A stretch of 64,000 bases of DNA from Planctomycetota bacterium (GTDB lineage Bacteria; Planctomycetota; Phycisphaerae; Phycisphaerales; UBA1924): NCBI GenBank assembly GCA_963204725.1, contig CAUJHH010000020.1, positions 1 to 64,000 on the forward strand. Direction: 5' to 3'. Of the stretch, positions 270 to 19,090 are shown piece after piece (position 1 is the stretch's first letter; the number at the start of each line of letters is the position of its first letter). The notes beneath the pieces were generated by a model, which made no database searches, was not told where the DNA came from, and was given only the letters and a program-made list of their open reading frames with translations. The position numbers and the translations under genes were made by a program.

Positions 270-275
270 CGGCGC

Positions 276-962: not shown

Positions 963-1091
963 AGAGTTGGAACGCGAAGGGCGCGAAGATCGCGAAGAAG
1001 CGTCTGAACGCGGAGGATCGCGGAGAGGGCGGACGGGTGGAAAGAAGGACAAGAAGAGCGGGAGACATTGGCAGAAGGCGAGTATCTCATC

Positions 1092-1115
1092 GTGACTTCG
1101 TGACTTTGTGACTTC
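1092..1115 (+). repeat. three tandem octamers GTGACTTC/GTGACTTT before plsY
   Basis: GTGACTTC, GTGACTTT and GTGACTTC follow one another without gaps and end one base before the plsY ATG. The reverse complement GAAGTCAC is almost the unit of the 13-copy array at 8573-8676 (GGAGTCAC), so this may be the same repeat family in the opposite orientation. Confidence 0.7.
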
Positions 1116-1116
1116 G

Positions 1117-1827: not shown

Positions 1828-2069
1828 GCCCGCGTTCGGCGCGAGTTCTCGGACGTGCGGTGAGCCATCGCGAAGTTGTTCCGTTCTTGGCAGGATCGCG
1901 TGCGGATCGCCGATAACTGGCGTGGCCGCTTGGTGCGAGCGTGAAGTCGCGCAAGTTGTGCCGGATCCGCAACCTTCGATGGGCATGGATGCTCGATCGT
2001 TGGGAGCGGGGAGCAAGCTCCGAGGGCGGACGGTCGATCAAAGCCGTGCCGCTGGGACAGGAGTGCGAC

Positions 2070-2333
2070 ATGCCGAAGCTTCGTTTGATCAAGGACGACC
2101 CGAGACTGCAGGACATCATTCCGTTTCCTTCGGGACTCGGTGGTCGGATCGGGGCGCGAGTGAGCGGGCAGTATGGCGCGGTGCCGGGTCGGATGGCCGA
2201 GGGATCGGCGCAGGACCTTGAGCACGAGTTGCTGGGGACGATCGATCGGATGCAGGGGCAGCTCGACGAGTTGTCGGACATGCTCGGCCCGATCCCGTTG
2301 TTCCCGAGAGACGATCGCCCGACTGCGGCGTGA
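2070..2333 (+). CDS. small hypothetical protein
   Basis: An 87-aa protein beginning MPKLRLIKDDPRLQDIIPF. The start is set by GGGACAGGAG at 2053-2062, seven nt before the ATG; longer upstream in-frame starts lack a binding site. The middle is Gly/Arg-rich and the end (LEHELLGTIDRMQGQLDELSDML) is predicted to be an amphipathic helix or short coiled coil. I do not recognise a family. It stands alone between plsY and the convergent HTH gene. Confidence 0.6.
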   Translation: MPKLRLIKDDPRLQDIIPFPSGLGGRIGARVSGQYGAVPGRMAEGSAQDLEHELLGTIDRMQGQLDELSDMLGPIPLFPRDDRPTAA

Positions 2334-2462
2334 GTGGAGTGGCGGCGGCGAGAGCCGCCGGTCTTTCAAGCGATGTCAGTGACGGGCATGGTCGAGAGAC
2401 CGTGCCCGTTTGTGTTTGGGGGCATCGATCGCGAGGGATGCATCGGGATCGAGTGGGCAAGG

Positions 2463-2499
2463 CGAAAGAAAGAACCCCCGGATTCAATTCGTGGGTTCT
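2463..2499 (-). terminator. Rho-independent terminator for the HTH-membrane gene
   Basis: On the minus strand AGAACCC (2499-2493) pairs with GGGTTCT (2477-2471) across a loop of about 15 nt, followed by TTCTTTC. It lies about 40 bp after the stop of the gene ending at 2539. Confidence 0.5.
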
Positions 2500-2538
2500 G
2501 GAATCACCAGTTCATTCGGGGCCGTCTGAGGAAAGGAA

Positions 2539-3360
2539 TCAGCGGGCGTTCTTCAGCATGACGAAGCCGAGGATCGCGGCGACGACGGTCACGCCGGCGA
2601 GGCCGCCGACGATGGCCATGAAGTTGCCACCGACCATGGCGAGGATGGCGGCGCCGCCGCCGGTCATGGCCATGAGGATGACGACGGCCGTGAAGGCGAG
2701 GGCGAGGACCATGCCGATGGAGAGGCCGGCGGCGAGTCCGGAGCCGGGGCCATCGATCACCTCGGCGAGGACCATGGTGGGCGCGGCGGCTGAGGCGGCG
2801 GCGGTGATGTCCGACGCGGCGGAGGTTGTCTCGAAGAGTGCGGCGGCCTCACCGGTGCCGCCGGGGCTGGTGCTGCCCAGGGCGGTCTCGGCCTGGGTCT
2901 CGCCTCCGTAGACGTCTTCCAGGAGGTCGGCACCGAGGGATGTGTCGTCGGCCTCGCGGGTCATGTCGAGGAGGCCGGAGCCGGAGCCACCCGCGTCGCC
3001 GGGGGAGAATCCGGCGGAGGGGGAGGTTGTGATCTGGGTGGCGGCCATGGGGTCGGCCGAGTCGGTGTCTTCGGTCTCGAAGATGGAGATGCCGGTCTGG
3101 TCCTTGGGGTTGTCGACCTGCATCGAGGGTCCGGAGCCGGAGGATGCGAGGGACATGGGCTCCAGATCGTCGTCGGCGAGGGGGATCATCTCGTCGTCGT
3201 GGCCACCGGAGAGGAGGTCGACCTGGTCGACCTTGAACATCATGCGGTCGCGGTCGCGGAACTCCTGGAGCTGACCGGATTCGGCCATCTGCTTGACCTC
3301 GTCGGGGCTCTTTCCGAGCTTTGCGGCGGCTTCCTCGAGGGTGTAGAACATCTTGGCCAT
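2539..3360 (-). CDS. HTH (excisionase/MerR-type) domain protein with C-terminal membrane segments
   Basis: The 273-aa product begins MAKMFYTLEEAAAKLGKSPD, a helix-turn-helix of the excisionase/MerR type (roughly residues 1-55). An acidic, Ser/Gly/Thr-rich linker of about 130 residues follows, and then hydrophobic stretches from about residue 200 (GLSIGMVLALAFTAVVILMA, GGNFMAIVGG, VTVVAAILGFVML) that should give two or three membrane spans. ATG 3360 starts exactly at the HTH; the 23 extra residues of the longer frame are Arg-rich and unlike the family. A DNA-binding head tied to the membrane recurs in planctomycete genomes. Its function is unknown. Confidence 0.8.
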   Translation of the reverse strand: MAKMFYTLEEAAAKLGKSPDEVKQMAESGQLQEFRDRDRMMFKVDQVDLLSGGHDDEMIPLADDDLEPMSLASSGSGPSMQVDNPKDQTGISIFETEDTDSADPMAATQITTSPSAGFSPGDAGGSGSGLLDMTREADDTSLGADLLEDVYGGETQAETALGSTSPGGTGEAAALFETTSAASDITAAASAAAPTMVLAEVIDGPGSGLAAGLSIGMVLALAFTAVVILMAMTGGGAAILAMVGGNFMAIVGGLAGVTVVAAILGFVMLKNAR

Positions 3361-3706
3361 GGTCGGGACTCCGGAAGATCGGCCGCGGATGGGGCGGCGG
3401 GTGGTCGGGACGCGGTATTCAAGCCGCACGACCCGGCTGGGGTCGAGCGGGGCAGAGACTCTATCTTACGGCGGAACGGGGCGGAGCGGATCCATGGGAT
3501 TCGGGGCTTTGGGGGTGTTCGTCCACAGGATGCCCACAGGGGGAGGGGCATCGGGCAGTGGGCCCGAGACACGAGAAGCCTAAAAAGGCAGCAGGCAGTG
3601 ATCGGGGACCAATCCGAGCACTGCCCATGCCTTGAAGGAGTTCTGCGAACCTCTCATCGCACGACGCGCGCGTCGAGTTGAGCGCGTTGCGATGAGTTCG
3701 TGAGAA
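3361..3706. other. 346-bp gene-free stretch
   Basis: Holds the upstream region of the HTH-membrane gene on the right of 3360 and the 3' end of the PEP-CTERM gene at 3707. Apart from the hairpin at 3584-3625 I see no feature in it; reading frames here have no start signals or recognisable products. Confidence 0.5.
3584..3625 (-). terminator. probable terminator after the PEP-CTERM gene
   Basis: GGCAGTG (3594-3600) pairs with CACTGCC (3619-3625), with an inner TCGG/CCGA pairing. Read on the minus strand the hairpin is followed by CTGCTGCC and TTTTT. The T tract begins some 7 nt after the stem, which is not ideal. Confidence 0.4.
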
Positions 3707-4345
3707 TCAGTTGGAACGGCGACGGCGCGATGAGATGAGGCCGGCGAAGCCGGCGAGCGCGAGCGACGCGGGCGCGGGAACGGCGAAGCCGGGGACCTTG
3801 TCAGAGCCGCCGTTGCTCAGGCCTCGGAAGCGCGCGATGAGGCCGGGCGTGTTGGCGGCATCGAGGAAAGAAGCATCGTTGAGGAGCGCGGCATCGAAGG
3901 CATGGATGGCCCAGACGAAGGTTGCTGTTGCACCGGGCGCGACGCCGTTTGAGGGCTTCCCGCCACCCTCGAACTGGCCCCCGGTGCCGATGCCGCCCGC
4001 GAAGGTGCCGTAGGGCGCGCCGTTGACGGAGCCCGTGTTCGTCAGCCCGGCGACTGAGCTTGAGATCAACGAGGTCCAGGCGCCGGGGTCGAGCGTGTCG
4101 AAGCGGAAGGCGACTGCGGTGAGATAGCCGCCGACGGAGTCGGGTGTGTCGTTTGTGAGGGTGATCGTGAGCTCGCCTACTGAGGCGCTGACGAACTCGT
4201 AAGCCAGCGTGCCGGAGTACGTTGCGCCGGTCTGGGACGCGCTCGAGCCGACATCGCCGAAGAAGGCGTCGGCCGACGCGGAGCCGCAGAGGCAGGCGAC
4301 CGCGGCAGTGGCAGTGGCGATCGTGGCGTGGCGAGTGGTCTTCAT
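3707..4345 (-). CDS. PEP-CTERM-type secreted protein
   Basis: A 212-aa protein with a Sec signal peptide (MKTTRHATIATATAAVACLCGSASA in outline) and a C-terminal sorting tail VPAPASLALAGFAGL followed by SSRRRRSN. PEP-CTERM tails are thought to be cut by an exosortase/archaeosortase after export, so the mature protein is probably surface-bound or released. The middle is beta-rich with no recognised enzyme motif. ATG 4345 has AAAGGAG 6 nt before it; the longer frame has no binding site. It is a clear paralog of the next gene (shared blocks SVAGxTNTGxVNGAPYGTF and GTGGQFEGGG). Confidence 0.85.
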   Translation of the reverse strand: MKTTRHATIATATAAVACLCGSASADAFFGDVGSSASQTGATYSGTLAYEFVSASVGELTITLTNDTPDSVGGYLTAVAFRFDTLDPGAWTSLISSSVAGLTNTGSVNGAPYGTFAGGIGTGGQFEGGGKPSNGVAPGATATFVWAIHAFDAALLNDASFLDAANTPGLIARFRGLSNGGSDKVPGFAVPAPASLALAGFAGLISSRRRRSN

Positions 4346-4536
4346 GGCGTTCTCCTTTGGAAGTGTGCTGGGCCGGGAAATGGCCTTTGGGCTCACCGAA
4401 CACCATGCGGTACAACCAAGGGCTTTGCGTGGAATGCGATGATCGAAGCGCGCGAATGACGAACTCGATCCGGCGTAGGAGGCGAAAGGCACCCAGTGTG
4501 ATGCTGGGAATGGGCGTGGTCTGATAATCAATTTGT

Positions 4537-4573
4537 CGAAAAAGACACAGTGGCCGTGCGAACACGGCCACTG
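4537..4573 (-). terminator. Rho-independent terminator after PEP-CTERM gene 4606-5238
   Basis: A perfect 11-bp stem, CAGTGGCCGTG (4548-4558) with CACGGCCACTG (4563-4573), closed by a CGAA loop on the plus strand. Read on the minus strand it is followed by TGTCTTTTTCG. It separates the two PEP-CTERM paralogs. Confidence 0.8.
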
Positions 4574-4605
4574 CGCGTGGGAATCAATTCATCGGACGGG
4601 GGGAC

Positions 4606-5238
4606 TCAAGCGCGGCGACGGCGCGACGCGACGAGACCGGCGAAGCCGGCGAGCGCGAGCGAGGCGGGCGCGGGGACGAACTCGCCGGGGACCTTATCCG
4701 AGCCGCCGTCGGCCAGGCCGCGGAAGCGGGCGAGGAGACTGGGCTGGTTCGCGGCGTTTGTGAACGAGGAATCGGTGAGCAGCGCTGCGTCGGAGGCGGT
4801 GATCTTCCAGACGTAGGTGCCGGTTGCGCCGATGGCGAGGCCGTTCGCGGGCGAGCCGCCACCCTCGAACTGTCCGCCGGTGCCCGCGCCGCCCATGAAC
4901 GTGCCGTAGGGCGCGCCGTTCACGGTGCCGGTATTGGTCATGCCGGCGACGGAACTGGAGGTCAGGAGCGTGGAAGCGGAGCCATCGGTGGTGTCGAAGC
5001 GGAAGATGACGGCGGTGAGACGGCCGCCGATGAGGGCGGGAGTCTCATTGGTCACGGTGATTGTGAGTTCGCCGATGGAGCCGCCGATGTGTGAGTAGCT
5101 GAGCGTGCCGGAGTAGTTTGATCCGGTGGACTCGGTGCTCGCGCTCATATCGCCGGAGAAGGCGATCGAGCCGAAGGCGGACGAAGTGGAAAGGACAGCA
5201 GCGGCCCAGATGGGCGCGGTAAGCCGGGCACGAAACAT
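4606..5238 (-). CDS. PEP-CTERM-type secreted protein, paralog of 3707-4345
   Basis: A 210-aa protein with an N-terminal signal peptide (MFRARLTAPIWAAAVLSTSSA) and the tail VPAPASLALAGFAGLVASRRRRA. It aligns along its whole length with the downstream gene (FSGDMSAST...SNYSGTLSYS versus FFGDVGSSAS...TYSGTLAYE; shared NGAPYGTF, GGQFEGGG and LLARFRGLADGGSDKVPG). AGGAG lies 9 nt before the ATG. The pair arose by tandem duplication; each has its own terminator. Function unknown. Confidence 0.85.
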   Translation of the reverse strand: MFRARLTAPIWAAAVLSTSSAFGSIAFSGDMSASTESTGSNYSGTLSYSHIGGSIGELTITVTNETPALIGGRLTAVIFRFDTTDGSASTLLTSSSVAGMTNTGTVNGAPYGTFMGGAGTGGQFEGGGSPANGLAIGATGTYVWKITASDAALLTDSSFTNAANQPSLLARFRGLADGGSDKVPGEFVPAPASLALAGFAGLVASRRRRA

Positions 5239-5430
5239 GTTCTCATCTCCTGTTCAGGTTCTCTTGTCGGTCCGGCACGTTATGAGGGTGCCGCCATAAC
5301 AGAGATTACGCATGAAGGGGTGTTTTTCGATGACGAATTCTGTATTTTCCACCCAATTTTGGCCACAAAACGCCCTTTTTTCGGCCGCACTACCCAAACG
5401 GAATTCTGATGTGAGGTTCTCGGATGTTCG

Positions 5431-6930
5431 TTATCGGAATCTGACTGGGCGGAGGTAGGTGAAGGATCGCCAGAGCCATTCCATGGGGCCGATCGAGAAG
5501 GCGCGGAACCAGAGCGTGCTGATGAGGAGCTGGCAGGAGAATGTGCCGAGCACGATCGCGACCTTCTCGATCGGGTCGAGCGTGCCGAAGAGCGCGAAGC
5601 CATAGAAGTAGCAGAGCGTGGTGCCGACGAGAGTCTGCGTGAGGTAGTTCGTCAGGGCCATGCGGCCCGTGCAGGCGAGCGGCTTGAGGGACCGTGAGAG
5701 GAGGGAGTCGGGCGCTCGCGAGGCGCGCGTGGAGAGGATCGCGGCGGCCGAGAGGAACGCCAATGGGATCAGGAGCGCGGTGAGCTGGTGCACGCCCTGC
5801 CAGAGAACGAAGGAGGGCGGGAGCTTTCCGCCCTGGTGCGGGAATCCGTGCATCTGGTTCCAGGAAGCGAAGAGAGAGGCGGGCGCGGCGATGAGGAGCG
5901 CGCTCGCGATAAGCGCGACGTGGATGCGATGGCGCGTCGGAGAGAAGAAGTCCGCGCGGATGAGGCCTGCGCCGAGGATGAAGAGGCCGATGATGCGGGG
6001 GATTCCTCCAAAGAGGATGTAGATCTGGATGAATCCCCAGGTCACGGAGCGAAACGCGGCGAGGTCCATCCAGGGGCCCTCGCGATAGGCGATGGTTTCG
6101 GCTTCGGACCACTCTTCGGATTGGCCGGACTTTCCGGTTTTGAAGGCATCGATGATGAACGCCCAGCCGCGGAGAGGAGGGGCCGGATCAGCGGAGGGTT
6201 CGGCGTCGGCAGGCGGCGCCGTGTCGGCGGGCGACTCTGCATCGGGAGTCGTGGCTGGTTCGGAGGTCGGGGGTGTTTCGACGGCCGATGGCTCGACGGG
6301 GGCGGGCTCGGAGGTTGGCTCTGTGGTGACGATGGGGGCGGGAGCGGCGCGCTCGGAGGTCGGCGCGGCCGGCTGTCCGGTCCCGAAGATGACACCGGCC
6401 AAGGTCATCAGGAGGATGATGGAATCGCCGGCGAGTGTGAGCGTGGCTCCGATCGCGATGAGGATCCTCGCGCTCAGCCGCCGGCAGAGGAGCAGGGCGA
6501 GCGAGCACATCGCGTAGATAAAGAGGATGTCGCCGAACCAGAGCAGGTGGGCGTGCATGAGCCCGAGCGCGGCGAGGAATCCGAAGCGGCGGAGCGCGAC
6601 GGATGTGGGCGAGGAGTGTCGCGCCTGGACGCGATCGGTGAGGATGATGAATCCCATGCCGAAGAGGAGCGAGAAGAGCGTGTAGAACTTGGACTCGAAG
6701 AGGCCGTGGGTGATGAGGCCCCAGAGGAGCTCTGCATTGGTCGCGGTGGCGGGGTCGACGGGGACCATGTACTGGCCGGCGGGCTCTGCGAAGGCCCCGA
6801 TGTTCATGACGAAGATGCCCAGGAGGGCGAATCCACGCGCGATGTCCATTGCCCCGATGCGTTCGGAATAGGGGACCGGGGCGGGGGGCGGGGGAGAAGA
6901 GACGTGAACGGGCGGTTCGGCAGCGGTCAT
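5431..6930 (-). CDS. DUF418 (YeiB-like) membrane protein with a Pro/Ala/Glu-rich insert
   Basis: A 499-aa polytopic membrane protein. The N-terminus (SERIGAMDIARGFALLGIFVMNIG) and C-terminal part (SLKPLACTGRMALTNYLTQT, GPMEWLWRSFTYL) are characteristic of the DUF418/YeiB family, whose function is not established. Between about residues 180 and 265 there is an insert rich in Pro, Ala, Thr and Glu (repeats like TSEPAPVEPS and SPADTAPPADAEPS) that should be a flexible loop outside the membrane. The start is the first ATG before the family domain. It is divergent from the beta-helix array. Confidence 0.88.
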   Translation of the reverse strand: MTAAEPPVHVSSPPPPAPVPYSERIGAMDIARGFALLGIFVMNIGAFAEPAGQYMVPVDPATATNAELLWGLITHGLFESKFYTLFSLLFGMGFIILTDRVQARHSSPTSVALRRFGFLAALGLMHAHLLWFGDILFIYAMCSLALLLCRRLSARILIAIGATLTLAGDSIILLMTLAGVIFGTGQPAAPTSERAAPAPIVTTEPTSEPAPVEPSAVETPPTSEPATTPDAESPADTAPPADAEPSADPAPPLRGWAFIIDAFKTGKSGQSEEWSEAETIAYREGPWMDLAAFRSVTWGFIQIYILFGGIPRIIGLFILGAGLIRADFFSPTRHRIHVALIASALLIAAPASLFASWNQMHGFPHQGGKLPPSFVLWQGVHQLTALLIPLAFLSAAAILSTRASRAPDSLLSRSLKPLACTGRMALTNYLTQTLVGTTLCYFYGFALFGTLDPIEKVAIVLGTFSCQLLISTLWFRAFSIGPMEWLWRSFTYLRPVRFR

Positions 6931-7246
6931 CGGGGCCTCCCTTGAGCGGGCGTGCGCGGGCCTGATGCCAGTCTATGTTGGGGGGATGGCGGGGAGGGTT
7001 GCGGGCCAAGGGTGCGCGCGCGGACGGTTGGGCACGATCGAGTCGGAATCAGGACTTTCGGGGAGAGTCTGGCAGGATGGGTAAGAAGGGGGGCGGGGCA
7101 CGGGGACTGGGGGCAAGTTGATGTTCGTCGGGCGCGCGTGTGGGGGCGAGATGGTGCTTTGTGGGGAGATGCTGCCCGGGTATCTTCGTCGGATCTGGAG
7201 TCGGATCTGGGAGAGGCGCGGGCCGTCTGGAACTGGAGGTCTGGCA
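6931..7246. other. 316-bp divergent intergenic region
   Basis: Separates the minus-strand DUF418 gene from the plus-strand beta-helix array. On the minus strand a -10-like TAGACT sits at 6976-6971, about 40 nt before the DUF418 start. Nothing else is recognised; the in-frame extension of the beta-helix ORF into this stretch has no start signal. Confidence 0.4.
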
Positions 7247-8572
7247 ATGAATCGGATGCGTGTGTGGCGTGCCGCGTCGGCGGCGGCGGTCGGTGTGTGC
7301 GTTGCTGGCGGCGCGATCGCCGGACCGATCACGCCCCCACCGGGGCCGGTGGCGAGCACGGGGAAGACCATTGCAGAGGTTGAGCCGCGGATCGCGATCA
7401 ACCTGACGAACACGCCGGGGGACGCGAACAGCGTGTTCAAGATCACGGCGCGCGGGTCGTATTACCTGAGTGAGAACGTTGCGGGTGCGAGCGGCAAGCA
7501 CGGGATCGAGATCACGGCGAGCAACGTGACGCTGGACCTGAACGGGTTCTCGCTGGTGGGCGGATCGGGTTCGCTGGACGGGGTGAACATCGCGACATCA
7601 CGCGGCGTGAACATCCGTGTTCACAACGGGATGATCCAGTCGTGGGGAGGTAGCGGCCTGAAGATGGAGTACAACGCCGGGAACCCGCCCCAGGGGTCGA
7701 TCGTCGGGATCCACGCGAACAACAACGGCGCCGACGGGATCGTGGTGGAGTTCAACAGCGAGGTGATCGACTGCGTCGCGACGGACAATGTCGGGGACGG
7801 CATCAAGGGCGGGAGCATCGCGCAGATCACGGGTTGCCAGGCGTCCTCCAATGGCGGCGACGGGATCTATTCGGGCCAGATGAGCGTGGTGACCGAGTGC
7901 CGCGCGACGGGCAACGACGGCACCGGATTCGCGCTCGCCTTGGGGAGCGTCATCAGCGACAGCGTGGCCGCGGGCAACGCGGTGGGCATCACGGGGCAGG
8001 GGTGTGTGATCCGGTCGTGCATCGCTCACACCAATGCGGGGAACGGCATCGACTCGTTCGAGGGGTGCACGATTCTGGATTGCGCGGCGTATCGCAACGG
8101 CGGAGATGGGATCGAGGGCTCGACGGCAACGGTGGTGTCGCGGTGCAGCGCAACGGACAACGACGCGAACGGGATCGTGGTTTCGAGCGGCTCGACGGTG
8201 CAGGAGTGCGTGGCTCGTCTGAACGGGCTCAACGGCATCCAGGTGGCTGGGGCGTCGCTGATCCTCGGGAACCAGTGCTCATCCAATGGGCAGGATCCGG
8301 CGGGCGGCGCGGGGATTCTTGTTTCCTCAACCGACAGCAAGATTGAGGGAAACAACTGCACGAGCCAGGACATCGGTATCAAGGTCAGCTCTTCCGGGAG
8401 CATCATCGTGAGGAACACGTGCTCGGGGAACACGCTGCAGTGGGACATCGCGGCCAGCAACTACTACGGCCCGATCATCAATCGTGTGGGCGTGGCAACG
8501 GCGGCGGTGAGCGGCACGAGCGCGTCATCGACGCTGGGCAGCACGGATGCGAATGCGAACTTTACGTATTAG
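7247..8572 (+). CDS. secreted right-handed beta-helix protein 1 of 5
   Basis: A 441-aa protein with a signal peptide (MNRMRVWRAASAAAVGVCVA) cleaved near AIA/GPITPPPGPV. The next segment, TGKTIAEVEPRIAIN through GSYYLSEN, is nearly identical in all five tandem paralogs. The rest is a series of short coils with the pattern G-x-x-I-x-x-C-x-A-x-x-N-x-G-x-G-I, typical of parallel beta-helix (pectate-lyase-like) folds. No catalytic residues can be pointed to. It ends STLGSTDANANFTY. Start chosen at ATG 7247 with CTGGAGG 7 nt upstream; the longer frame adds a Trp/Arg-rich stretch that is not signal-like. Confidence 0.85.
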   Translation: MNRMRVWRAASAAAVGVCVAGGAIAGPITPPPGPVASTGKTIAEVEPRIAINLTNTPGDANSVFKITARGSYYLSENVAGASGKHGIEITASNVTLDLNGFSLVGGSGSLDGVNIATSRGVNIRVHNGMIQSWGGSGLKMEYNAGNPPQGSIVGIHANNNGADGIVVEFNSEVIDCVATDNVGDGIKGGSIAQITGCQASSNGGDGIYSGQMSVVTECRATGNDGTGFALALGSVISDSVAAGNAVGITGQGCVIRSCIAHTNAGNGIDSFEGCTILDCAAYRNGGDGIEGSTATVVSRCSATDNDANGIVVSSGSTVQECVARLNGLNGIQVAGASLILGNQCSSNGQDPAGGAGILVSSTDSKIEGNNCTSQDIGIKVSSSGSIIVRNTCSGNTLQWDIAASNYYGPIINRVGVATAAVSGTSASSTLGSTDANANFTY

Positions 8573-8676
8573 GAAGTCAGGGAGTCAGGGAGTCACGGAG
8601 TCACGGAGTCACGGAGTCACGGAGTCACGGAGTCACGGAGTCACGGAGTCACGGAGTCACGGAGTCACGGAGTCAC
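8573..8676 (+). repeat. 13-unit tandem octamer array, unit GGAGTCAC
   Basis: Starting right after the stop codon of the previous gene, thirteen 8-bp units follow without interruption: GAAGTCAG, GGAGTCAG, then eleven identical GGAGTCAC. The array ends 3 nt before the next ATG, so its last GGAG lies 7 nt from the start codon and acts as the Shine-Dalgarno site. The array therefore holds 12 copies of GGAG in a row. The identity of eleven units suggests recent slippage. Confidence 0.95.
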
Positions 8677-8679
8677 GCG

Positions 8680-9786
8680 ATGATGAAAGCGAATGTGTTT
8701 GCGTTGGTGGCGAGTGTGGCTCTGTGGAGCGCACCTGACGCGTTGGCCGGTCCGATCACGCCTCCTCCCGGGCCGGTGGCGAGCACGCCGGGGCCGGAGC
8801 CGCGGATCGCGATCAACGCGACGAACACACGGGGAGATTCGGACTCGCTGTTCAGGATCATCGCTCCCGGCTCCTACTACCTGACCGACAACATCACCGG
8901 CGTTCCGAGCAAGATGGGGATCGAGATCGCGACCCATGGCGTCACGATCGACCTCAATGGCTTCGATCTCCTGGGAGCCTTCGGCTCGCTGGACGGCATC
9001 GGGACCTCGATCGACAGTCTGCGCAACATCACAGTGGTCAATGGCTCGATCCGCAACTGGGGGGGTGATGGTCTCCGCCTGAGCACCACCTATGAATGCC
9101 GCGTGGAAGGCGTGCTCAGCTCGGGCAACGGCCGCTACGGCATTGTGATCGGCGCGGGCGGCGTGATCGCCCGCAGCGCCGGCCATAGCAACGCGAACCA
9201 CGGTATCGTGACGGGCGATGGCTGCACAATCACGGACTGCGCGGCATACTCCAACACGCTCAATGGGATCAGCGGCGGCACCGGCTGCACCATCACAGGG
9301 TGCTCGACCTACAAGAATGGCTACAACGGCATCACCACGGGATCCGACTGCCTGGTGACGGGCTGCACATCGACTTTCAACGGCCTGCGCGGAATCCTTG
9401 TCAGCATCCGCGGTGTGGTCACGGGCTGCAACGCGAGCAGCAACGGAGCCGATGGCATCCAATGCAGCTCGGGGGGCTACATCCACGCCAACAACTGCGC
9501 CGGCAACGGCAAGGTGTCCAGCGACGGCGCAGGAGTTCGCGCCACCGGCGCCGACAACCGGATCGAGGGCAACAACTGCACCGGCGCGGACCGAGGCATC
9601 ACGATCGATGTCGCCGGCAACCTCATCACCGGCAACACCTGCTCGGGCAACACCTCGAACTGGGAGATCGCGGCGAACAACAAGGTCGGGCCCATCGTCG
9701 CATCCCCGAACAGCGTCGCCATCAGCGGCGACACCGGCGGGGCGGGACTCGGCTCGACGAATCCGTGGGCGAACTTCACGTACTGA
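8680..9786 (+). CDS. secreted right-handed beta-helix protein 2 of 5
   Basis: A 368-aa paralog of the preceding protein. Signal peptide MMKANVFALVASVALWSAPDALA, then GPITPPPGPVAST, PEPRIAINATNTRGD and GSYYLTDNITG. Beta-helix coils follow with pairs such as GCTITDC, GCTITGC and DCLVTGC, giving regularly stacked cysteines. It ends GLGSTNPWANFTY. ATG 8680 (or 8683) is served by the last GGAG of the octamer array. The reading frame is open back through the array, but that part encodes only the repeat and is not considered coding. Confidence 0.87.
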   Translation: MMKANVFALVASVALWSAPDALAGPITPPPGPVASTPGPEPRIAINATNTRGDSDSLFRIIAPGSYYLTDNITGVPSKMGIEIATHGVTIDLNGFDLLGAFGSLDGIGTSIDSLRNITVVNGSIRNWGGDGLRLSTTYECRVEGVLSSGNGRYGIVIGAGGVIARSAGHSNANHGIVTGDGCTITDCAAYSNTLNGISGGTGCTITGCSTYKNGYNGITTGSDCLVTGCTSTFNGLRGILVSIRGVVTGCNASSNGADGIQCSSGGYIHANNCAGNGKVSSDGAGVRATGADNRIEGNNCTGADRGITIDVAGNLITGNTCSGNTSNWEIAANNKVGPIVASPNSVAISGDTGGAGLGSTNPWANFTY

Positions 9787-9834
9787 GTACGCACACATCC
9801 AGTACTGAGTCCATTCGAACAAGGACACTGCGTG

Positions 9835-11166
9835 ATGATGGAGCAGGGCACACACGAGGGCGTCACGGAGCTGGCATCATCTCTACCGTCGCAGCGACGC
9901 GCGCTGCTTGCGGGCGTTGCCGGATTGGCGGCGGGCGCGATGATGGCGGGCGGGCGCAGCGCGCATGCCGGGCCGATCACGCCACCTGCGGGTCCGGTCG
10001 TGGGCACGGGCAAGACGCTGACGGATGTGGAGCCCCGCATCGCGATCAACGCGGCGAACACGCGGGGGGATGCCAATAGCACCTATCGCATCACCCAGGC
10101 GGGCTCATACTACCTGACGTCGAACGTGGCGGGTGAGGTGGGAAAGCACGGCATCGAGATCGGCGCGAACAATGTGACCATCGATCTGATGGGATTCTCG
10201 ATGATCGGTGTGGCCGGCTCGCTCGCGGGCATCTCTGTGGATTCGGCGCGACGACACGTCACTGTGCGTGACGGCTTTCTGGAATCGTGGGATGGCGGGG
10301 GGATCGATCTGACAGCGGGAGGTGCCGCGGAAGGACATCGAGTCGAGCGAGTGGTCGTCCGAACAAGCGGGCCGATTGGTATCCGTGTCGGCAATGTCTC
10401 TGTCGTCGAGTCGTGCGTGGTGCTCTCGGGCTCGGGTGATGGGATCGTTGCATCGGGCAACTCGATCATCAGAGACTGCTCGGTCGAGTCGCGAGGCGGC
10501 ACGGGGATTGTGGCATCGAGCGTCTGCCGGATCTTCGGATGTAGCGCGCGGCTGAACGCCGTGAGCGGATTTGCGTTCTTCACGGCCTGTGTATTCGATG
10601 GATGCGTCGCAGAGCAGAACGTCCTGGATGGCTTTGGCGGATCGGGCGTCGGTGTGGCATGTGTCTTCAGCAACTGCACCGCGGTTGGCAACGGCGGCTC
10701 CGGATTCGCCATGCACGTGGACTGTGTCGTCAGGTCGTGCTCTGCCCGAGTGAACCTCGGGTATGGCTACACGGCTGCGCTGAACTTCCACATCTCGGAT
10801 TGCAGCGCGACGTTCAACAAACTCGACGGCATCCGCGCAGGCTCCGGACGAGCCGTGGTGCTGAACAATCACTGCGGCTCGAACGGCAATGGTGGCAGCG
10901 GCGCGGGGATCCTCGTGATGGGCACCGACAGCCGCATCGAGGGGAACAACTGCATCGGCAACACGAGGGGAATCGACGTTGATTCCGGCGGGTGCATCAT
11001 CCTCCGGAACACGTGCTCGGGCAACTCCACGAACTACGACATCGTGGCCAACAACCGGTATGGGGCGATCGTCAATATCGAAGCATCCGGCGGCGCAGCC
11101 GTCTCGGGGAGCAGCGCCGCGAGCAACCTCACGACGACCGATCCGTGGGCGAACTTCACGTACTAG
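9835..11166 (+). CDS. secreted beta-helix protein 3 of 5, with a Tat-type signal
   Basis: A 443-aa paralog of the array. Unlike its neighbours its N-terminus is long and carries SQRRALLAGVAGLAAGAMMAGG, a twin-arginine-like motif before a hydrophobic stretch, then AHAGPITPPAGPV. The shared block TLTDVEPRIAINAANTRGD and the coil repeats (CRIFGCSARLN, CVFDGCVAEQN, CVFSNCTAVGN) follow, and the end is TTTDPWANFTY. ATG 9835 is preferred; a GTG at 9832 and ATG 9838 are alternatives, with AAGGAC upstream. Tat export of only one paralog would be unusual and needs testing. Confidence 0.83.
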   Translation: MMEQGTHEGVTELASSLPSQRRALLAGVAGLAAGAMMAGGRSAHAGPITPPAGPVVGTGKTLTDVEPRIAINAANTRGDANSTYRITQAGSYYLTSNVAGEVGKHGIEIGANNVTIDLMGFSMIGVAGSLAGISVDSARRHVTVRDGFLESWDGGGIDLTAGGAAEGHRVERVVVRTSGPIGIRVGNVSVVESCVVLSGSGDGIVASGNSIIRDCSVESRGGTGIVASSVCRIFGCSARLNAVSGFAFFTACVFDGCVAEQNVLDGFGGSGVGVACVFSNCTAVGNGGSGFAMHVDCVVRSCSARVNLGYGYTAALNFHISDCSATFNKLDGIRAGSGRAVVLNNHCGSNGNGGSGAGILVMGTDSRIEGNNCIGNTRGIDVDSGGCIILRNTCSGNSTNYDIVANNRYGAIVNIEASGGAAVSGSSAASNLTTTDPWANFTY

Positions 11167-11228
11167 GAAGTCGCGACGGCAGGAGGCATTTGGCGATGGG
11201 CAATGAGTACCAGACTCGGAGTCATGTG

Positions 11229-12671
11229 ATGTTCAAGCGAACGAGCCTGTTGATTGTGTGTGGAGCTCTCTGGAGCGTCACTTCCCTGGCCGGACCCATC
11301 ACGCCTCCTCCGGGGCCGGTGGCATCGACACACAAGACGCTCACCGAGGTTGAGCCGCGGACGGCGATCAACGCGACGAACACGCCGGGTGATGCCGACT
11401 CGCTCTATAAAGTCACGGCTCCGGGGTCCTATTACCTCACCGGCAACATCACCGGCGTGGCGGGCAAGCACGGGATCGAGATTACGTCCGGCGGCGTCAC
11501 GCTCGATCTCATGGGGCTTGACCTGGTCGGCGTGCCCGGCTCCCTCGATGGCGTCTCCGCGACGGTGGGTGTGAATGGCGTGCGTGTCCATAACGGCTCC
11601 GTGCGCTCCTGGGGCGACGAGGGGCTCGACTTCTCCAACGGTGCTTCGATTGGTGTGACCGAAGTGACCGTGCTGGGTTGCGTCGGCTTTGGCATCAGCG
11701 TCGCGACGAACTCCAGCGTCACCGGCTGCCTCGTCTCCGGTAACGGCTCTGGGGGCATCGCCACCGGGACCAACTGTGTCGTGAGCGGGTGCACCGCCAA
11801 CGGCAATACCGGTGCAGGAGGCATCGTGGCGTATGTAGGGTGCCGAGTTGCCGATTGTGCGGCGTTCAGCAATAGCGGCGACGGCATCACCGCGGCCAAC
11901 GGAAGCACCATCTCGGGATGCACCTCGACCGACAACACCTCCGATGGCATCGCCGTCAACAGCGGCTGCACCATCTCGAACTGTTCGGTATCAAGCAACG
12001 ACGACCTTGGGATCAACGCGGGCGACCACTGCACGATCACGGGCTGCAACTCCAGGTCCAACGCAAAGGAAGGTATCCGAACTGGGTTGGGATCGACCAT
12101 CCACTCCTGCTCAAGCGCGGCGAACGGCGGCACCGGGCTGACCGCCGGCGACTCCAGCACCCTCTCCGGTTGCTCGGCCATCGGCAACAACACGAGCAAC
12201 GGAGTCACCGGTGCCGGCATCCTCGCGAATAGCGGCAGTTCGGTCCTCAACTGCGCGGCAGACGCCAATACCCGCACCGGCATCGTGCTCGGGGATGGCA
12301 GCACGGTCGCTAACTGCGCAGCCCGTGACAATACAGGCGACGGCATCTCGTGCGCTTCGGGTTGCCTCATCATCAGCAACACCTGCGCCAATAACGGCAA
12401 CGGCGGAGATGGGGCTGGGATCCATGCCATTTCGTCCGACAACCGGATCGAAGGGAACACCTGCCGCACTTCCGATCGCGGCATCGATGTCGACGGCACC
12501 GGCAATATCATCGTCCGCAATACGTGCTCGGGCAACGGCACAAACTGGACGTTCAATCTCGGGAACGCCTATGGGCCCATCGTCGTCACGCCCCCCGGTG
12601 CGGGCGTGAGCGGCAACAGTGCCGCCGCATCACTCGGCTCGACAGACCCCAATGCCAACTTCACGTTTTGA
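11229..12671 (+). CDS. secreted right-handed beta-helix protein 4 of 5
   Basis: The largest of the five, 480 aa, with extra coils. Signal peptide MFKRTSLLIVCGALWSVTSLA, then GPITPPPGPVAST and the shared EPRTAINATNTPGD block. At least nine coils show a C-x-I-x-x-C pattern (GCTISGC, GCTISNC, HCTITGC, CLVSGN), giving a ladder of cysteines on one face. It ends SLGSTDPNANFTF. ATG 11229 has GGAG 7 nt upstream in the context GGAGTCATGTG, strikingly like the octamer before gene 2. An alternative ATG at 11196 with AGGAGG would add 11 polar residues before the signal. Confidence 0.85.
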   Translation: MFKRTSLLIVCGALWSVTSLAGPITPPPGPVASTHKTLTEVEPRTAINATNTPGDADSLYKVTAPGSYYLTGNITGVAGKHGIEITSGGVTLDLMGLDLVGVPGSLDGVSATVGVNGVRVHNGSVRSWGDEGLDFSNGASIGVTEVTVLGCVGFGISVATNSSVTGCLVSGNGSGGIATGTNCVVSGCTANGNTGAGGIVAYVGCRVADCAAFSNSGDGITAANGSTISGCTSTDNTSDGIAVNSGCTISNCSVSSNDDLGINAGDHCTITGCNSRSNAKEGIRTGLGSTIHSCSSAANGGTGLTAGDSSTLSGCSAIGNNTSNGVTGAGILANSGSSVLNCAADANTRTGIVLGDGSTVANCAARDNTGDGISCASGCLIISNTCANNGNGGDGAGIHAISSDNRIEGNTCRTSDRGIDVDGTGNIIVRNTCSGNGTNWTFNLGNAYGPIVVTPPGAGVSGNSAAASLGSTDPNANFTF

Positions 12672-12710
12672 GCTCTCGTCCGCTGCCATCGCTTTGGAAC
12701 AGAGGTCTCC

Positions 12711-13898
12711 ATGAACAAGTCTGTTGTTGTGTGTTCGGTGCTCGCTGTCGTCGGTCTCTTGGGTGCGGGCACACTCGTCGCTGGCCCCATCACGCCTCCT
12801 CCGGGGCCGGTGGTGAGTACGGGCAAGACGCTGACGGAGGTTGAGCCCAGGATCGCGATCAACGCGACCAATACACCGGGGGACGCTTCGAGCGTCTATC
12901 TGATCACGCAGCCGGGGTCGTACTACCTGACGGGGAATGTGACGGGCGCGACGGGCAAGTCCGGGATCGCGATCGCGTCGAGCAATGTGACCATCGACCT
13001 CATGGGCTTCGCGCTGCAGGGCGTGGCGGGCTCCGGCAACGGGATTGCGGGCCAGGGGTTCAACAACGCGATCATCATCCGGAACGGCACGATCCGCGGG
13101 TGGGGAGATTCCGGCATCAATATGACCGGACTCGGGTTTGGGGACGATTCGCTGATCGAGGGCATCCTCGCGTCGGCCAACGGGGCAAGCGGCATCGTGA
13201 CGAGCAACAACGCGCTCGTGAGGGACTGTGTCGCGCTGGGGAATGCCGGCACCGGGATCTCTCTCAGCGCGAACGGCGTCGTTTCGGGCTGTACGGTGCG
13301 AGGCAACGGCGGCTCCGGGATCACGGCAGGCAACGCCGCGATCGTGTCGAGCTGCTCGGTGCGTCAGAACGCCAGTGGCGGGATCTCGGTGCAGACCGGC
13401 TCGTCTGTACTTGACTGTGTGGTGCATCTCAACGGCGGCACGGGGGTGAACGCGGGAACCGCTGCCACGGTGTCGAACTGCACGGTCACGAGCGGCACGG
13501 GGACGGGCGTCGTGGTCGGAAGCGCGAGTCTGGTTGCGGACTGCGTTGTGCAGCTGAACGGCGCACACGGGATCTCGATCCTGAACGACTGCGTGGTGCG
13601 GGGGAATCTGTGCGACTCGAACGGGGCCACGTCGGACGGCGCGGGGATCCTGATTCCGAGCCAGGACAACCGCATCGAGGGGAACAACTGCACCGACAAC
13701 GACTGGGGCATCCGGGCAACGAGCGCCGGGAACCTGTTCACGCGGAACACATGCTCCGGGAACACGACGCTCAACTGGGACATCGCCACCGGAAACATCT
13801 GTTTCGTCGTGAACGCGGCGATCTCGAGCGCGGTCGCGGGCAACTCCGGAGGCGTCGCCTCGGGCTCGTCGGACGCGAACGCGAACTTCACATACTGA
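12711..13898 (+). CDS. secreted right-handed beta-helix protein 5 of 5
   Basis: A 395-aa paralog closing the array. Signal peptide MNKSVVVCSVLAVVGLLGAG, then TLVAGPITPPPGPVVST and the shared block TLTEVEPRIAINATNTPGD, then GSYYLTGNVTG. Coil repeats such as GVVSGCTVRGNGGSGITAG follow, and the end is SGSSDANANFTY. AGAGG precedes the ATG. The spacing between genes is short (about 40-60 bp except for the octamer array), so the five may be one transcript. Confidence 0.86.
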   Translation: MNKSVVVCSVLAVVGLLGAGTLVAGPITPPPGPVVSTGKTLTEVEPRIAINATNTPGDASSVYLITQPGSYYLTGNVTGATGKSGIAIASSNVTIDLMGFALQGVAGSGNGIAGQGFNNAIIIRNGTIRGWGDSGINMTGLGFGDDSLIEGILASANGASGIVTSNNALVRDCVALGNAGTGISLSANGVVSGCTVRGNGGSGITAGNAAIVSSCSVRQNASGGISVQTGSSVLDCVVHLNGGTGVNAGTAATVSNCTVTSGTGTGVVVGSASLVADCVVQLNGAHGISILNDCVVRGNLCDSNGATSDGAGILIPSQDNRIEGNNCTDNDWGIRATSAGNLFTRNTCSGNTTLNWDIATGNICFVVNAAISSAVAGNSGGVASGSSDANANFTY

Positions 13899-13981
13899 CT
13901 CGCCTCCTCGTGCCGCAACAGATCTGGCGGCCGGCGACGAATCTGCCCCCACCCTCCCCAGCAACCCGGCTCGCGAGCCCC

Positions 13982-14085
13982 CACTGACAGACGTCTGTCA
14001 GTGAGCCGGGCCCGAGTGGGGCGGTTTGCGCGCGCAAATCCACACACACCGAACAAAGCCCTTGCATTGGGCCACCCAGGGTGGC
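13982..14085 (+). promoter_or_regulatory. regulatory signature A upstream of the terminase operon
   Basis: A perfect palindrome with core ACTGACAGACGTCTGTCAGT (13983-14002, one more matching pair outside) is followed by CCGAGTGGGGCGG (14012-14024), then the 14-bp palindrome TTTGCGCGCGCAAA (14025-14038), and finally GCCACCCAGGGTGGC (14071-14085). The first three are repeated, in the same orientation relative to transcription, before the portal gene 44 kb away. The palindrome is probably an operator for a dimeric regulator. The operon start is 154 bp further on. Confidence 0.75.
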
Positions 14086-14156
14086 AAGACTGTGGCGTCG
14101 CCCGTGTGGGGCCGGGGTTCGGCCGGAGCGGGGCGTGCTCATGGTGGAGGTCACCG

Positions 14157-14684
14157 ATGCGAGAGAGGACGATGGCAGAAGTCGGAGACGGGGTGCGCGT
14201 GGCGCGGGCCGCACGCACACTGCGCTTGAACGATGGGGCGACGCATGATCTTCGGCTGCGGATGGCGCGCGAGCGGGTGGAGTCGCTGCTTCGGCGCGCG
14301 ATCCTCCTCGCACCCGAGGATCAGTGGCTGCTCGAACAGGTTCTGGGCAGGGGTCGATCGCTGGCCTCGATCGCGCGTCTCTCCGGTGGATCACCCGAGG
14401 CGCTTCGCAAACGGACGAAACGGCTGATTGCCCGGGTCGAGTCCGCGATGTACGGGTTCGTGCTCGAGCGAGCGGAGCTGTGGGACAGCCAGATGCGGGA
14501 CGCGGCGCGGTCGTGCGTCGGACGCGGGCTCTCGATGCGTGCGACGGCTCGTGCGCTGCGGCTGCCGATGCACACGGTTCGGACACGGATGCTCGAGGTC
14601 CATGCGATGTTCGTCGCCTCCGTCGAACGGGCAACGCCTGCGCCGGTCTCGCTTCTCGCGCGGGGCATGGAGGACGCGGCATGA
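14157..14684 (+). CDS. double helix-turn-helix protein heading the terminase operon
   Basis: A 175-aa basic protein with two likely helix-turn-helix units: one near residues 55-85 (GRSLASIARLSGGSPEALRK) and one near 125-150 (GLSMRATARALRLPMHTVRT), both sigma/LuxR-like in spacing. ATG 14157 has GGAGG 6 nt upstream. It overlaps the next gene by ATGA. It could be the regulator of the operon or a small terminase subunit, which in phages is also HTH-bearing and lies upstream of the large subunit. I cannot decide between these from sequence. Confidence 0.75.
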   Translation: MRERTMAEVGDGVRVARAARTLRLNDGATHDLRLRMARERVESLLRRAILLAPEDQWLLEQVLGRGRSLASIARLSGGSPEALRKRTKRLIARVESAMYGFVLERAELWDSQMRDAARSCVGRGLSMRATARALRLPMHTVRTRMLEVHAMFVASVERATPAPVSLLARGMEDAA

Positions 14685-15370
14685 GCGCAGGCACACAGGT
14701 GATGGAAGGGCGGGTCTCGAGGCGCGTGCTGCGCGCACTGGCGGCGTTCGGCCTCTCGATCGACGACACGATCCGATCGCATTGCGCGGGGCGCGGTGAA
14801 TGGCGTAGACGTGCGGCGCGGATCGTCTCAGGCCGGGCGCGGGTCACGGCGATCGTCGGCCCGAGCGGCTCGGGCAAGAGCACGCTGCTGCACGAGGTGG
14901 AGCGGCTGGCGATGAACGGTGGGGAGCGCGTCGTGCGCGCCGGTCGGGAGCGCGCGGGACCGGAGCAGGCGATTGTGGCGATGCCCCACACCACGCTCGG
15001 CGAGGCGATCTCGCTGCTCGCGCGGGTCGGGCTCGCCGAGCCACGCCTGTTCGGACTCGGGCCCGGGGAGCTCTCGGATGGGCAGCGTGCGCGATACATG
15101 CTTGCGCTCGCGATCCGGGATGCGATGGATGCGCTCCGACGCGGCGCACCGGGCGGCACCGTGTGGTTGCTGATCGACGAGTTCGGGAGCGGGCTCGACG
15201 TGGTCACGGCGCGGGGAGTGGCGAGCGCGATGGCGCGGCTGGTGCGTCGGCACGCCGGCATCCGGCTTGTCGTGTGCGTCCACGATGATCGCGTGCTCCC
15301 CTGGCTTGAACCGGAGTCGACGATCGAACTGTCGCTCGGAGGGGCGGTGCGCGAGAGGAGGACGGCGTGA
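14681..15370 (+). CDS. ABC-type ATPase without membrane domain (COG2401-like ATPase half)
   Basis: A 229-aa protein with Walker A GPSGSGKST (about residues 61-69), a signature-like LSDGQRARYMLALAI, and Walker B VWLLIDEFGSGLD. These are the marks of an ABC ATPase, but no transporter partner is nearby. The next gene encodes a GNAT-like protein, and an ABC ATPase fused to a predicted acetyltransferase is a known but uncharacterised family (COG2401); here the halves look like separate genes. It overlaps both neighbours by a few bases, so it is translationally coupled. It lies between an HTH protein and a phage terminase. Confidence 0.8.
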   Translation: MSAGTQVMEGRVSRRVLRALAAFGLSIDDTIRSHCAGRGEWRRRAARIVSGRARVTAIVGPSGSGKSTLLHEVERLAMNGGERVVRAGRERAGPEQAIVAMPHTTLGEAISLLARVGLAEPRLFGLGPGELSDGQRARYMLALAIRDAMDALRRGAPGGTVWLLIDEFGSGLDVVTARGVASAMARLVRRHAGIRLVVCVHDDRVLPWLEPESTIELSLGGAVRERRTA

Positions 15371-16179
15371 TGCGGATGACCGACGTGTTCGCGGTGGAGC
15401 GCGGATCGTTCACGGATCTGGCGGCGCTCGCCCGCTTCCACTACGCGGGTGGGGCCCCGGGTGTGCCGGCACGGATTCTGCGCGCGATGGATCGTGTGCG
15501 AGGCGAGTTGATCGGGGTGCTGGTGGTCTCGTCTCCCCCGCTGAATGGCGCGTGGCGCGAGCGGGCCTGGCCACACCTCTTTGGTGATGCGGGAAGCGGC
15601 CGAATGAGCCGGCGGGATGCGGCGACTGCGCTGAACAGGCACGTGCGAACGATCTCGCGCGTGATCGTGGAGCCACGCCGCCGATCCATGGGGGTCGGGG
15701 CGATGCTGGTGCGGACGTATCTGGGCGACGCGCTGACGCCGCTGACGGAAGCGATCGCGGCGATGGGGCGTTACACGTCGCTCTTCGAGCGGTGCGGGAT
15801 GCGTGTGGTCGAGTGCGCCCGATCAACACGAGATTATCGTCTGATCGATGCCTTGGCGCACGAGGGGATCGCGCCGATCGACCTGGTCGATCCGGAACGG
15901 GCCGTGGAACTGATGCGCCGGGCGTTCGTGCGCGACGAGGTTGATCGATGGCTGAACGCGGCGCGGGGGACGCGCGGTCTGCTCTCGACCGCTCGCGTGG
16001 AACGGAGCGCGGTCGCGGGACGATCGATCATCGCGCGCCCGGTGGTGTACGTGCATGGAGAACCGGGGGAGGGAGCCCATGAAAGAGCGGACTCGGGGCG
16101 AGCGGGCGCGGGTGGCGATTGTCTTCTTCGTGTCGGAGGGGGAGCGGCGGCTCATCCTGCGCGTGCTCCGGCGGCTTGA
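15370..16179 (+). CDS. GNAT-like acetyltransferase domain protein (COG2401 acetyltransferase half)
   Basis: A 269-aa protein beginning MRMTDVFAVERGSFTDLAALA. The segment TISRVIVEPRRRSMGVGAMLVRTYL (about residues 95-120) has the V-x-P-x-x-R-x-x-G-(V/I)-G acetyl-CoA-binding pattern of GNAT enzymes. The first part (FHYAGGAPGVPARILRA) resembles the acetyltransferase half of COG2401. The start overlaps the stop of the ATPase gene (TGATG); a GTG at 15367 is an alternative. The last 35 or so residues are low-complexity and overlap the small gene at 16079, so the functional protein may end earlier. The substrate is unknown. Confidence 0.72.
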   Translation: MRMTDVFAVERGSFTDLAALARFHYAGGAPGVPARILRAMDRVRGELIGVLVVSSPPLNGAWRERAWPHLFGDAGSGRMSRRDAATALNRHVRTISRVIVEPRRRSMGVGAMLVRTYLGDALTPLTEAIAAMGRYTSLFERCGMRVVECARSTRDYRLIDALAHEGIAPIDLVDPERAVELMRRAFVRDEVDRWLNAARGTRGLLSTARVERSAVAGRSIIARPVVYVHGEPGEGAHERADSGRAGAGGDCLLRVGGGAAAHPARAPAA

Positions 16180-16231
16180 CCGGGATCGCAGGCGGTCGCT
16201 GCTGAGGGTGCTCGGGATCCTGCGGGCGTGA
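16079..16231 (+). CDS. 50-aa basic protein between the GNAT gene and the terminase
   Basis: Too short for most gene callers, but the ATG has a strong binding site (GGGGGAGGGAG, 16065-16075) 3 nt upstream. The product begins MKERTRGERARVAIVFFVSE and is very rich in Arg and Leu (RRLILRVLRRL), suggesting amphipathic helices. It overlaps the tail of the GNAT gene by about 100 bp in another frame and ends 43 bp before the terminase start. I recognise no family. Confidence 0.5.
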   Translation: MKERTRGERARVAIVFFVSEGERRLILRVLRRLDRDRRRSLLRVLGILRA

Positions 16232-16274
16232 CGGTTCGGGGAACGGCCTGATTGCGTGGGGCTCCCGCTCCGCG

Positions 16275-17780
16275 ATGGAACCCGTGGGGGGCCATCGCGT
16301 GGATGAACGGATCGATGGGATGGAAGGGATGCGCCGCTTCGACGGTGCGCGCCCGGCGTGCGCGCGCGACCTGCAGCGGTTTGTGCGTGACGCAACGGGC
16401 TTGCTGGTGCCTTCGCGGTCGAGGGAGGGGAACGCGGGCGGGCCGCTCGAGTATCTGTGGCACGCGTTCGACGATGGGGGCGCGGAGACTCGCGCGCGGG
16501 ATTCGGTGGTGTGGGCCTGCCGCGGAGGAGGGAAGACGCTGCTGGGTGCGCTGGCGACGGTGGCGGACATGGTGTTCAACGAGGGGATCCAGGTGCGGAT
16601 CCTCGCGGGGTCGCTGCAGCAGGCGTCGCGGATGCACGCGCACCTGCGCTGGGCGTTCGGGAGGCCGATGCTGTCGGGGCTGGTTCGGGGCCGGATCACG
16701 GAGCGCCGGATCGAGCTCGAGAGCGGCTCGCGCGTGGAGCTGCTTGCGCAGTCGCAGACGGCGGTGCGCGGCACGCGAGTGCATCGCTTGCGCTGCGACG
16801 AGGTGGAGCTCTTCGACCCCGAGGTGTGGGAGGCGGCGCAGCTCGTGACGCGGTCGGAGCAACTGCCCACGGGACCGGTGAGGGGATCGATCGAGGCGAT
16901 GAGCACGATGCACATGCCGTTCGGGTTGATGCACCGCGTGGTGGAGTCGTGCGCGCTGGGAACGCGGGAGCTCTTCAAGTGGGGCATCGCGGACGTGCTC
17001 GGGCCGTGCGCGTGTGGAGCGGGCGAGCGAGCGGCGTGTTCGCTGGAGCCGGAGTGTGCGATGGCGCCGGCAAGGGCGAGCGAGGAGCCGGGGTTCTACG
17101 GGATCGAGGATGCGAAGCGTTCCAAGCGGCGCGTCGGGGCCGAGGTCTGGGCGTCGGAGATGTTGTGCGTCCGACCGTCGAGGCGTGAGACGGTCTTTCC
17201 CGAGTTTGAGGAATCGACACACGTCGTCGGCGAGATCCCCGACGGGCTCGGCGCGAACGGGGCGTGGTACTGCGGCATGGACTTCGGCTTTCGCACCAGC
17301 GCGCTGCTGTGGGCTGTGCACGACCCGACCGGCGGCACGCTCTACGTGGTGGACGAGCGGGTGGAGCACAACGCGATGCTGCGCGATCAGATCGAGGCGA
17401 TCCGGGCGTCCGAGTGGCCCACGCCGCTCTGGCTCGGCGTCGATCCTGCGGGGAACCAGCGGAGCGACCAGAGCGGGCGCTCGAGCATCGAGCTGCTGCG
17501 CGAGCACGGGCTGAGGGTGAAGTGGAAGAAGCTGGAGACGAGGGCGGGGCTCGAACTGGTGCGCCTGCGACTGCGCCCGGCGGCGGGTGTGGCCCGGCTG
17601 TTCGTGCACCGACGCTGCACGAAGCTGATCGAGGCGATGCGTTCGTACCACTTTGATCCGGAGGACCAGACGCGCGAGAGGCCGGTCAAGGACGGCCACG
17701 ATCACATCGCCGATGCGCTGCGGTATCTGGTGGTGTGCCTCGATGGGCGGTTCGAGACGCGGGTGGGTGGGTATGCGTAG
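16275..17780 (+). CDS. terL: phage terminase large subunit (DNA-packaging ATPase/nuclease)
   Basis: A 501-aa protein with both terminase domains. The ATPase has a Walker A ACRGGGKT (about residues 84-91), a Q-rich LAGSLQQASRM segment, and the Walker B-like LRCDEVELFDPEVW. The nuclease begins GMDFGFRTSALLWAV (first acidic residue near 335) and ends in KDGHDHIADALRYLV near 475-490. In phages this protein cuts DNA and pumps it into an empty head. It is the last gene of the HTH-ATPase-GNAT operon; no portal gene follows, but one lies 40 kb away on the other strand. GTG 16299 or ATG 16320 are alternative starts. Confidence 0.88.
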   Translation: MEPVGGHRVDERIDGMEGMRRFDGARPACARDLQRFVRDATGLLVPSRSREGNAGGPLEYLWHAFDDGGAETRARDSVVWACRGGGKTLLGALATVADMVFNEGIQVRILAGSLQQASRMHAHLRWAFGRPMLSGLVRGRITERRIELESGSRVELLAQSQTAVRGTRVHRLRCDEVELFDPEVWEAAQLVTRSEQLPTGPVRGSIEAMSTMHMPFGLMHRVVESCALGTRELFKWGIADVLGPCACGAGERAACSLEPECAMAPARASEEPGFYGIEDAKRSKRRVGAEVWASEMLCVRPSRRETVFPEFEESTHVVGEIPDGLGANGAWYCGMDFGFRTSALLWAVHDPTGGTLYVVDERVEHNAMLRDQIEAIRASEWPTPLWLGVDPAGNQRSDQSGRSSIELLREHGLRVKWKKLETRAGLELVRLRLRPAAGVARLFVHRRCTKLIEAMRSYHFDPEDQTRERPVKDGHDHIADALRYLVVCLDGRFETRVGGYA

Positions 17781-17786
17781 AGACGA

Positions 17787-18635: not shown

Positions 18636-18641
18636 GACAAG

Positions 18642-19076: not shown

Positions 19077-19090
19077 GAGGGAGCGGCCAA

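Follow-up and report, generated by a model that had tools for sequence, protein, structure and literature searches.

The closest described systems to the array considered here are dispersed families of short tandem repeats. GGGNATC heptamers in Xanthomonas and Nostoc are scattered through intergenic DNA, mostly beside stop codons and on the coding strand (Rehm et al., 2015, PMC4692102). Their arrays stand singly or as inverted pairs, and between species they keep their position and differ in length (PMC4692102). TAACTGA direct repeats, which occur patchily in unrelated phyla (Beggiatoaceae, Cyanobacteria and Bacteroidetes), are also dispersed, with many of them near start codons (MacGregor, 2015, PMC4679880). 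A third system is formed by the intervening sequences of 23S rRNA that carry the S23/IVP open reading frame, e.g. in Coxiella burnetii, and are bordered by complementary sequences (PMC4990558).

We considered how an octamer array at 8573-8676 on the forward strand of the window, by which we mean the whole 64,000-nucleotide stretch of DNA that was analysed, compares with these systems. The array is a member of a dispersed family with the unit AGTCACGR. Its units run in the order GAAGTCAG at 8573, GGAGTCAG at 8581 and then eleven identical copies of GGAGTCAC at 8589-8676, followed by GCG and by the ATG at 8680, which leaves 3 nt between the end of the array and the start codon. The whole spacer is array, from the upstream TAG (8570-8572) to 3 nt short of the ATG. 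The sequence-only reading had described 13 octamers, 11 of them identical, between tandem genes, and this description is confirmed by Tandem Repeats Finder (period 8, 12.9 copies, 98% matches, with a score of 192 that is the highest in the window) and by a shuffle count, in which the 16-mer GGAGTCACGGAGTCAC was found 16 times at up to three mismatches against 1.15 expected. Of the limits first given, 8573-8682, the start is correct and the end is not: the array proper stops at 8676/8677, and 8680-8682 is the start codon. We rejected as coding an extended open frame that reads across the array (8419-9786), because its GTG falls within the upstream gene and 8680 is where the signal peptide starts. 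We also rejected a role for the units as GANTC methylation sites (GAGTC within the GGAG form), since many units of the family read GAAG, which abolishes the site. An Rfam search of positions 1-20000 returned no match, and a scan of the beta-helix cluster for sigma-70 promoters and terminators gave nothing above chance. The leader RNA folds no better than shuffled sequences (z -0.49), and the suggestion that array length acts through RNA structure, as a structural switch, is therefore rejected.

The downstream gene (8680-9786, forward strand) encodes a 368-aa protein with a signal peptide (MMKANVFALVASVALWSAPDALAG) and a match to Pfam Beta_helix. The upstream gene (7247-8572, forward strand), whose TAG abuts the array, encodes a protein of the same family, also with a signal peptide, that shares 43-47% identity with its neighbor over parts of their length. 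In other words, the tandem beta-helix pair proposed earlier stands for the downstream member on the Pfam match, and the upstream member, for which Pfam gave no match of its own, owes its assignment to paralogy. Within the same cluster, the spacer at 11167-11228 (forward strand) starts, stop codon included, with TAGGAAGTC and ends in one unit, GGAGTCAT (11218-11225), whose GGAG lies 7 nt from the ATG at 11229; this spacer is a degenerate counterpart of the focal array. The cluster genes starting near 9834 and at 12711 have no array before them. Two other loci in the window can be recorded here. Near the beta-helix cluster, 16275-17780 encodes a terminase large subunit-like protein (Pfam Terminase_6C), and on the minus strand 3707-5148 encodes two tandem paralogous proteins of secreted type with a PEP-CTERM-like tail (VPAPASLALAGFAGLISSRRRR).

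The GGAG of the last unit (8669-8672, forward strand) is the probable Shine-Dalgarno site of the downstream gene. The favorable distance from the ATG that had been claimed for it is 7 nt, and the same register recurs in two species: all eight array-bearing beta-helix spacers, in the window and in G002:C45 of a sister species, have a last unit with GGAG 6-7 nt from the ATG. A Shine-Dalgarno site should be a box of purines some 5-9 nt ahead of the start codon, conserved in relatives, and the last unit supplies one. Across the six G002 spacers, GGAG is present at 8 of 28 other unit positions and in every last unit (Fisher p=0.002), a test that favors the claim, the last unit having been located by a search for GGAG and the spacers being related rather than independent. 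The uniform box and register in the eight spacers argue that the last unit is very probably a Shine-Dalgarno site, one that would have been taken over from the repeat by exaptation. Tuning of translation by copy number is a possible, putative further function; the terms with which we searched the literature for multiple Shine-Dalgarno sites found no paper on them.

The proposal to look for the array elsewhere in the genome gave a clear answer. Pattern searches, on which all the genome-wide array counts given here are based, found 14 separate arrays of the unit AGTCACGR in the genome of the window, on both strands (pattern AGTCANNNAGTCA), and the reversed-pattern control found none. The focal array is the longest copy of the family found in this genome, and its units are more uniform than those of most arrays. 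A second array in the window, of 3.4 copies at 1090-1116 on the minus strand, immediately precedes plsY (start at 1117) in antisense orientation and offers that gene no Shine-Dalgarno site; it is absent from the sequence-only reading. The family is present in all four genomes of this genus of Phycisphaerales, and a three-unit pattern is found in nine of 301 sampled genomes of the order, four of which belong to this genus. Among 85,000 species genomes, a four-unit pattern matched 58 stretches, mostly in Phycisphaerales MAGs, with several in one Lysobacterales MAG and others scattered in Actinobacteria, Betaproteobacteria and other groups. The unit itself changes between species, from AGTCACGR in the genome of the window to AGGCACGR in many arrays of the sister species G003. 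The AGGCACGR arrays of G003 form a large set (e.g. C1:2618277-2618378 and C1:753227-753320), and the genome of the window has one match to this unit. In seven cases, a perfect array of about 10-16 units is placed at the extreme end of a contig or of an analysed stretch; some of these probably break assemblies, so real lengths may be longer.

Thus, with many loci above chance, a mainly intergenic location and positions that are kept while unit number varies, the AGTCACGR arrays are a dispersed intergenic short tandem repeat family of the GGGNATC, TAACTGA or STRR kind. The unit is not identical to those of the described GGGNATC and TAACTGA families, so the kind is the same and the family is not, and the open-access literature yielded no paper containing the unit GTCACGAAGTCACG.

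Comparison between species bears on the expectation that the array should change in length. Orthologous arrays of G001 and G003, at sites where both flanks match at about 85-95%, contain 3.6 versus 7.6, 4.2 versus 2.4, 5.8 versus 4.8, 3.6 versus 4.8 and 6.9 versus 18.5 units; one pair is equal, at 2.1 each. At the focal locus, the upstream gene (7247-8572) forms a reciprocal best-hit pair with a G002 gene that ends at C45:11604 (66% identity, 434 aa), and similarity at the DNA level reaches as far as the array itself (78% across 598 nt). The spacer after this gene contains 13.1 units in the window and 4.5 in G002. The downstream genes of the two spacers are not mutual best hits, and the spacer is therefore orthologous on its upstream side only. 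Paralogous beta-helix spacers contain 2.5 to 9.5 units. As judged by these alignments, array positions are conserved between species while the number of units shifts. A change in length with the last-unit register kept is thus found between species (13 versus 4.5 units), and slippage would be a plausible cause of it. The constant copy number that would speak against a variable array was not seen in this comparison, where each species is represented by one genome and orthologous arrays mostly differ.

The genomic context of the arrays indicates how the family as a whole should be understood. Among 58 arrays of the genus, placed relative to genes called by a simple codon-usage script that makes the starts approximate, 25 are co-directional in sense orientation, 16 are antisense, 6 lie between convergent and 4 between divergent genes, 6 are inside called genes and 1 is at an edge; 52 of the 58 are therefore outside called genes. 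When the beta-helix cluster is left aside, 19 sense arrays stand against 16 antisense ones, a random orientation (p=0.74). Arrays toward which the preceding gene is directed start a median of 4 nt past its stop codon (typically 0-5 nt); for comparison, the median gap between genes in the window is 149 nt. This even division of orientations, together with the placement after stop codons, means that the family is not, taken overall, a device for providing ribosome sites. The earlier view of the array as a ladder of ribosome sites is not supported: the same arrays occur genome-wide in both orientations, in convergent and divergent spacers, and antisense before plsY.

Our explanation, which we consider likely, is that the focal array belongs to a family of intergenic octamer repeats dispersed through the genome, and that in the beta-helix genes the terminal unit of such arrays was co-opted as a Shine-Dalgarno site. 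The family, which we describe for this Phycisphaerales genus, has a unit that can be written AGTCACGR or, equally, GRAGTCAC. Its arrays lie mostly just past a stop codon. Comparison of species shows that they hold their position over species-level time while units are gained, lost and homogenised, changes that replication slippage or unequal recombination may cause. In the beta-helix cluster, sense arrays extend as far as the following start codon. Since GGAG is part of the sense unit, the unit closest to the ATG has very probably become the Shine-Dalgarno site, to which ribosomes presumably bind. The upstream units would then be mostly by-products of expansion, with a modest effect on ribosome loading that is possible but would not be the reason for the array. 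A selected role could also explain the high uniformity of the focal array.

Compatible with this explanation is the idea that arrays standing alone are what is left of hairpin elements, or the blocks from which these are built; in such elements, inverted arrays surround IVP genes or short cores. We regard this as rather unlikely. In the genome of the window, at G000:C68 (stretch L050, 1987-2418), an inverted pair of AGTCACGR arrays surrounds a damaged four-helix-bundle gene (PF05635, 23S rRNA IVP), the only IVP gene found in this genome, between neighbors that we take, from their sequence, to be accB-like and accC-like. Complementary short-repeat flanks are present at all nine IVP genes of the genus. 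We compared arms at 46 IVP genes, taken from the genus, the family and four additional genomes. Aligned with the reverse-complemented downstream arm, the upstream one has a median score of 23, versus 11 in direct orientation, and a score of at least 18 is reached at 35 of the 46 versus 5 of 134 control genes; the control set probably includes an IVP gene that was overlooked. The arrays that form the arms are built from varied units, among them AGTCACGR, AGTGACRC and AGGCACGR. Inverted array pairs roughly 100-200 bp apart also occur in G003 and in the Lysobacterales MAG MO_188.B40; the pairs of the latter are formed by AGTCACGG and AGTCACCT around short, partly shared cores, which look like a family of miniature hairpin elements, and this MAG also has an IVP gene bearing AGTCACGG-type arms. 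Against the idea, an inverted partner within 400 bp was found for only 8 of the 58 genus arrays and not for the focal array, at which there is no IVP element; a link between the focal array and IVP genes is therefore a possibility only. We rejected the stronger proposal that all arrays are tied to IVP genes, since, in the genus, an IVP gene is enclosed at just a single AGTCACGR locus.

IVP genes are found at what seems to be the same accB-accC spot in two species (G000:C68 and G003), with arms that differ (AGTCACGG versus AGTGACAC). The arms of each pair match themselves, which could reflect either concerted change of both arms or two separate insertions. The broadest model, which we advance with little confidence, would unite octamer arrays and inverted IVP arms in one system of mobile hairpin elements, whose arms would have been grown and homogenised as tandem arrays. 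Solo arrays would be the seeds or remains of such elements, and hosts would have taken up units as Shine-Dalgarno sites with a variable number of upstream ribosome sites. Our search of open-access text found no report of tandem-array arms at IVP genes outside rRNA.

The reading of the array as a tuning device is unlikely. On this reading, ribosomes could land at every unit of a mostly unstructured leader, and slippage, by changing the number of units, would alter the output of a surface protein. Such a device agrees with the sense orientation and fixed last-unit register of all array-bearing beta-helix spacers, with the differences in unit number between species and paralogues, and with leader folding no better than shuffles. 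However, elsewhere arrays run antisense, separate convergent genes or lie well away from starts, the array before plsY in this window is itself antisense, and two genes of the beta-helix cluster lack an array. We think it very unlikely that the units bind a putative protein, an RNA-binding regulator or a DNA-binding one, at many loci that together form a regulon. The core AGTCAC is conserved at many loci, and such a mode of action has been proposed for the TAACTGA repeats of Beggiatoaceae (PMC4679880), but the arrays occur in both orientations and in convergent spacers, and both their unit number and their unit sequence change fast between species (AGTCACGR versus AGGCACGR in G003). Chance growth of a Shine-Dalgarno box into a lone microsatellite would fit a very homogeneous array whose unit contains such a box, but is highly improbable given the 14 arrays of this unit in the genome, with none in the control, and the counterpart array in the sister species G002.

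Co-option of a terminal unit, as we suggest, would exemplify how a spreading short repeat, still changing in length, can come to serve a gene family as its signal for translation. The beta-helix spacers provide a natural series, from 1 to 13 units at a constant distance from the start, for asking whether extra upstream ribosome sites matter. They also counsel caution, as a repeat whose last unit simply falls next to a start codon can look like an array of Shine-Dalgarno sites. IVP genes between matching inverted short-repeat arrays give a handle on the function of this element family.

The dispersed short-repeat kind was already known; what sets the present case apart is the very probable use of the terminal unit of such a repeat as a Shine-Dalgarno site in one gene family. 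Like the 23S rRNA intervening sequences, a cassette in the genome of the window has a four-helix-bundle gene within complementary flanks, in this case inverted AGTCACGR arrays. In contrast to those sequences, however, the cassettes seen here lie between protein genes and have short tandem arrays as arms, and the focal array is solo, with no IVP gene. With TAACTGA the family shares dispersed arrays of a short unit, a patchy distribution across phyla and shifts in length by whole units. Most arrays here, unlike those repeats, are not directly before starts, and TAACTGA units have no Shine-Dalgarno character and overlap the expected site, whereas here the last unit supplies it. The resemblance to GGGNATC lies in the dispersed, intergenic location near stop codons, in arrays that occur alone or in inverted pairs, and in positions that are kept while length varies. 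The focal family differs from GGGNATC in that its unit has 8 bp, a different sequence and no G-tracts that could form quadruplexes, and in that its sense unit contains a Shine-Dalgarno box on which one gene family draws.
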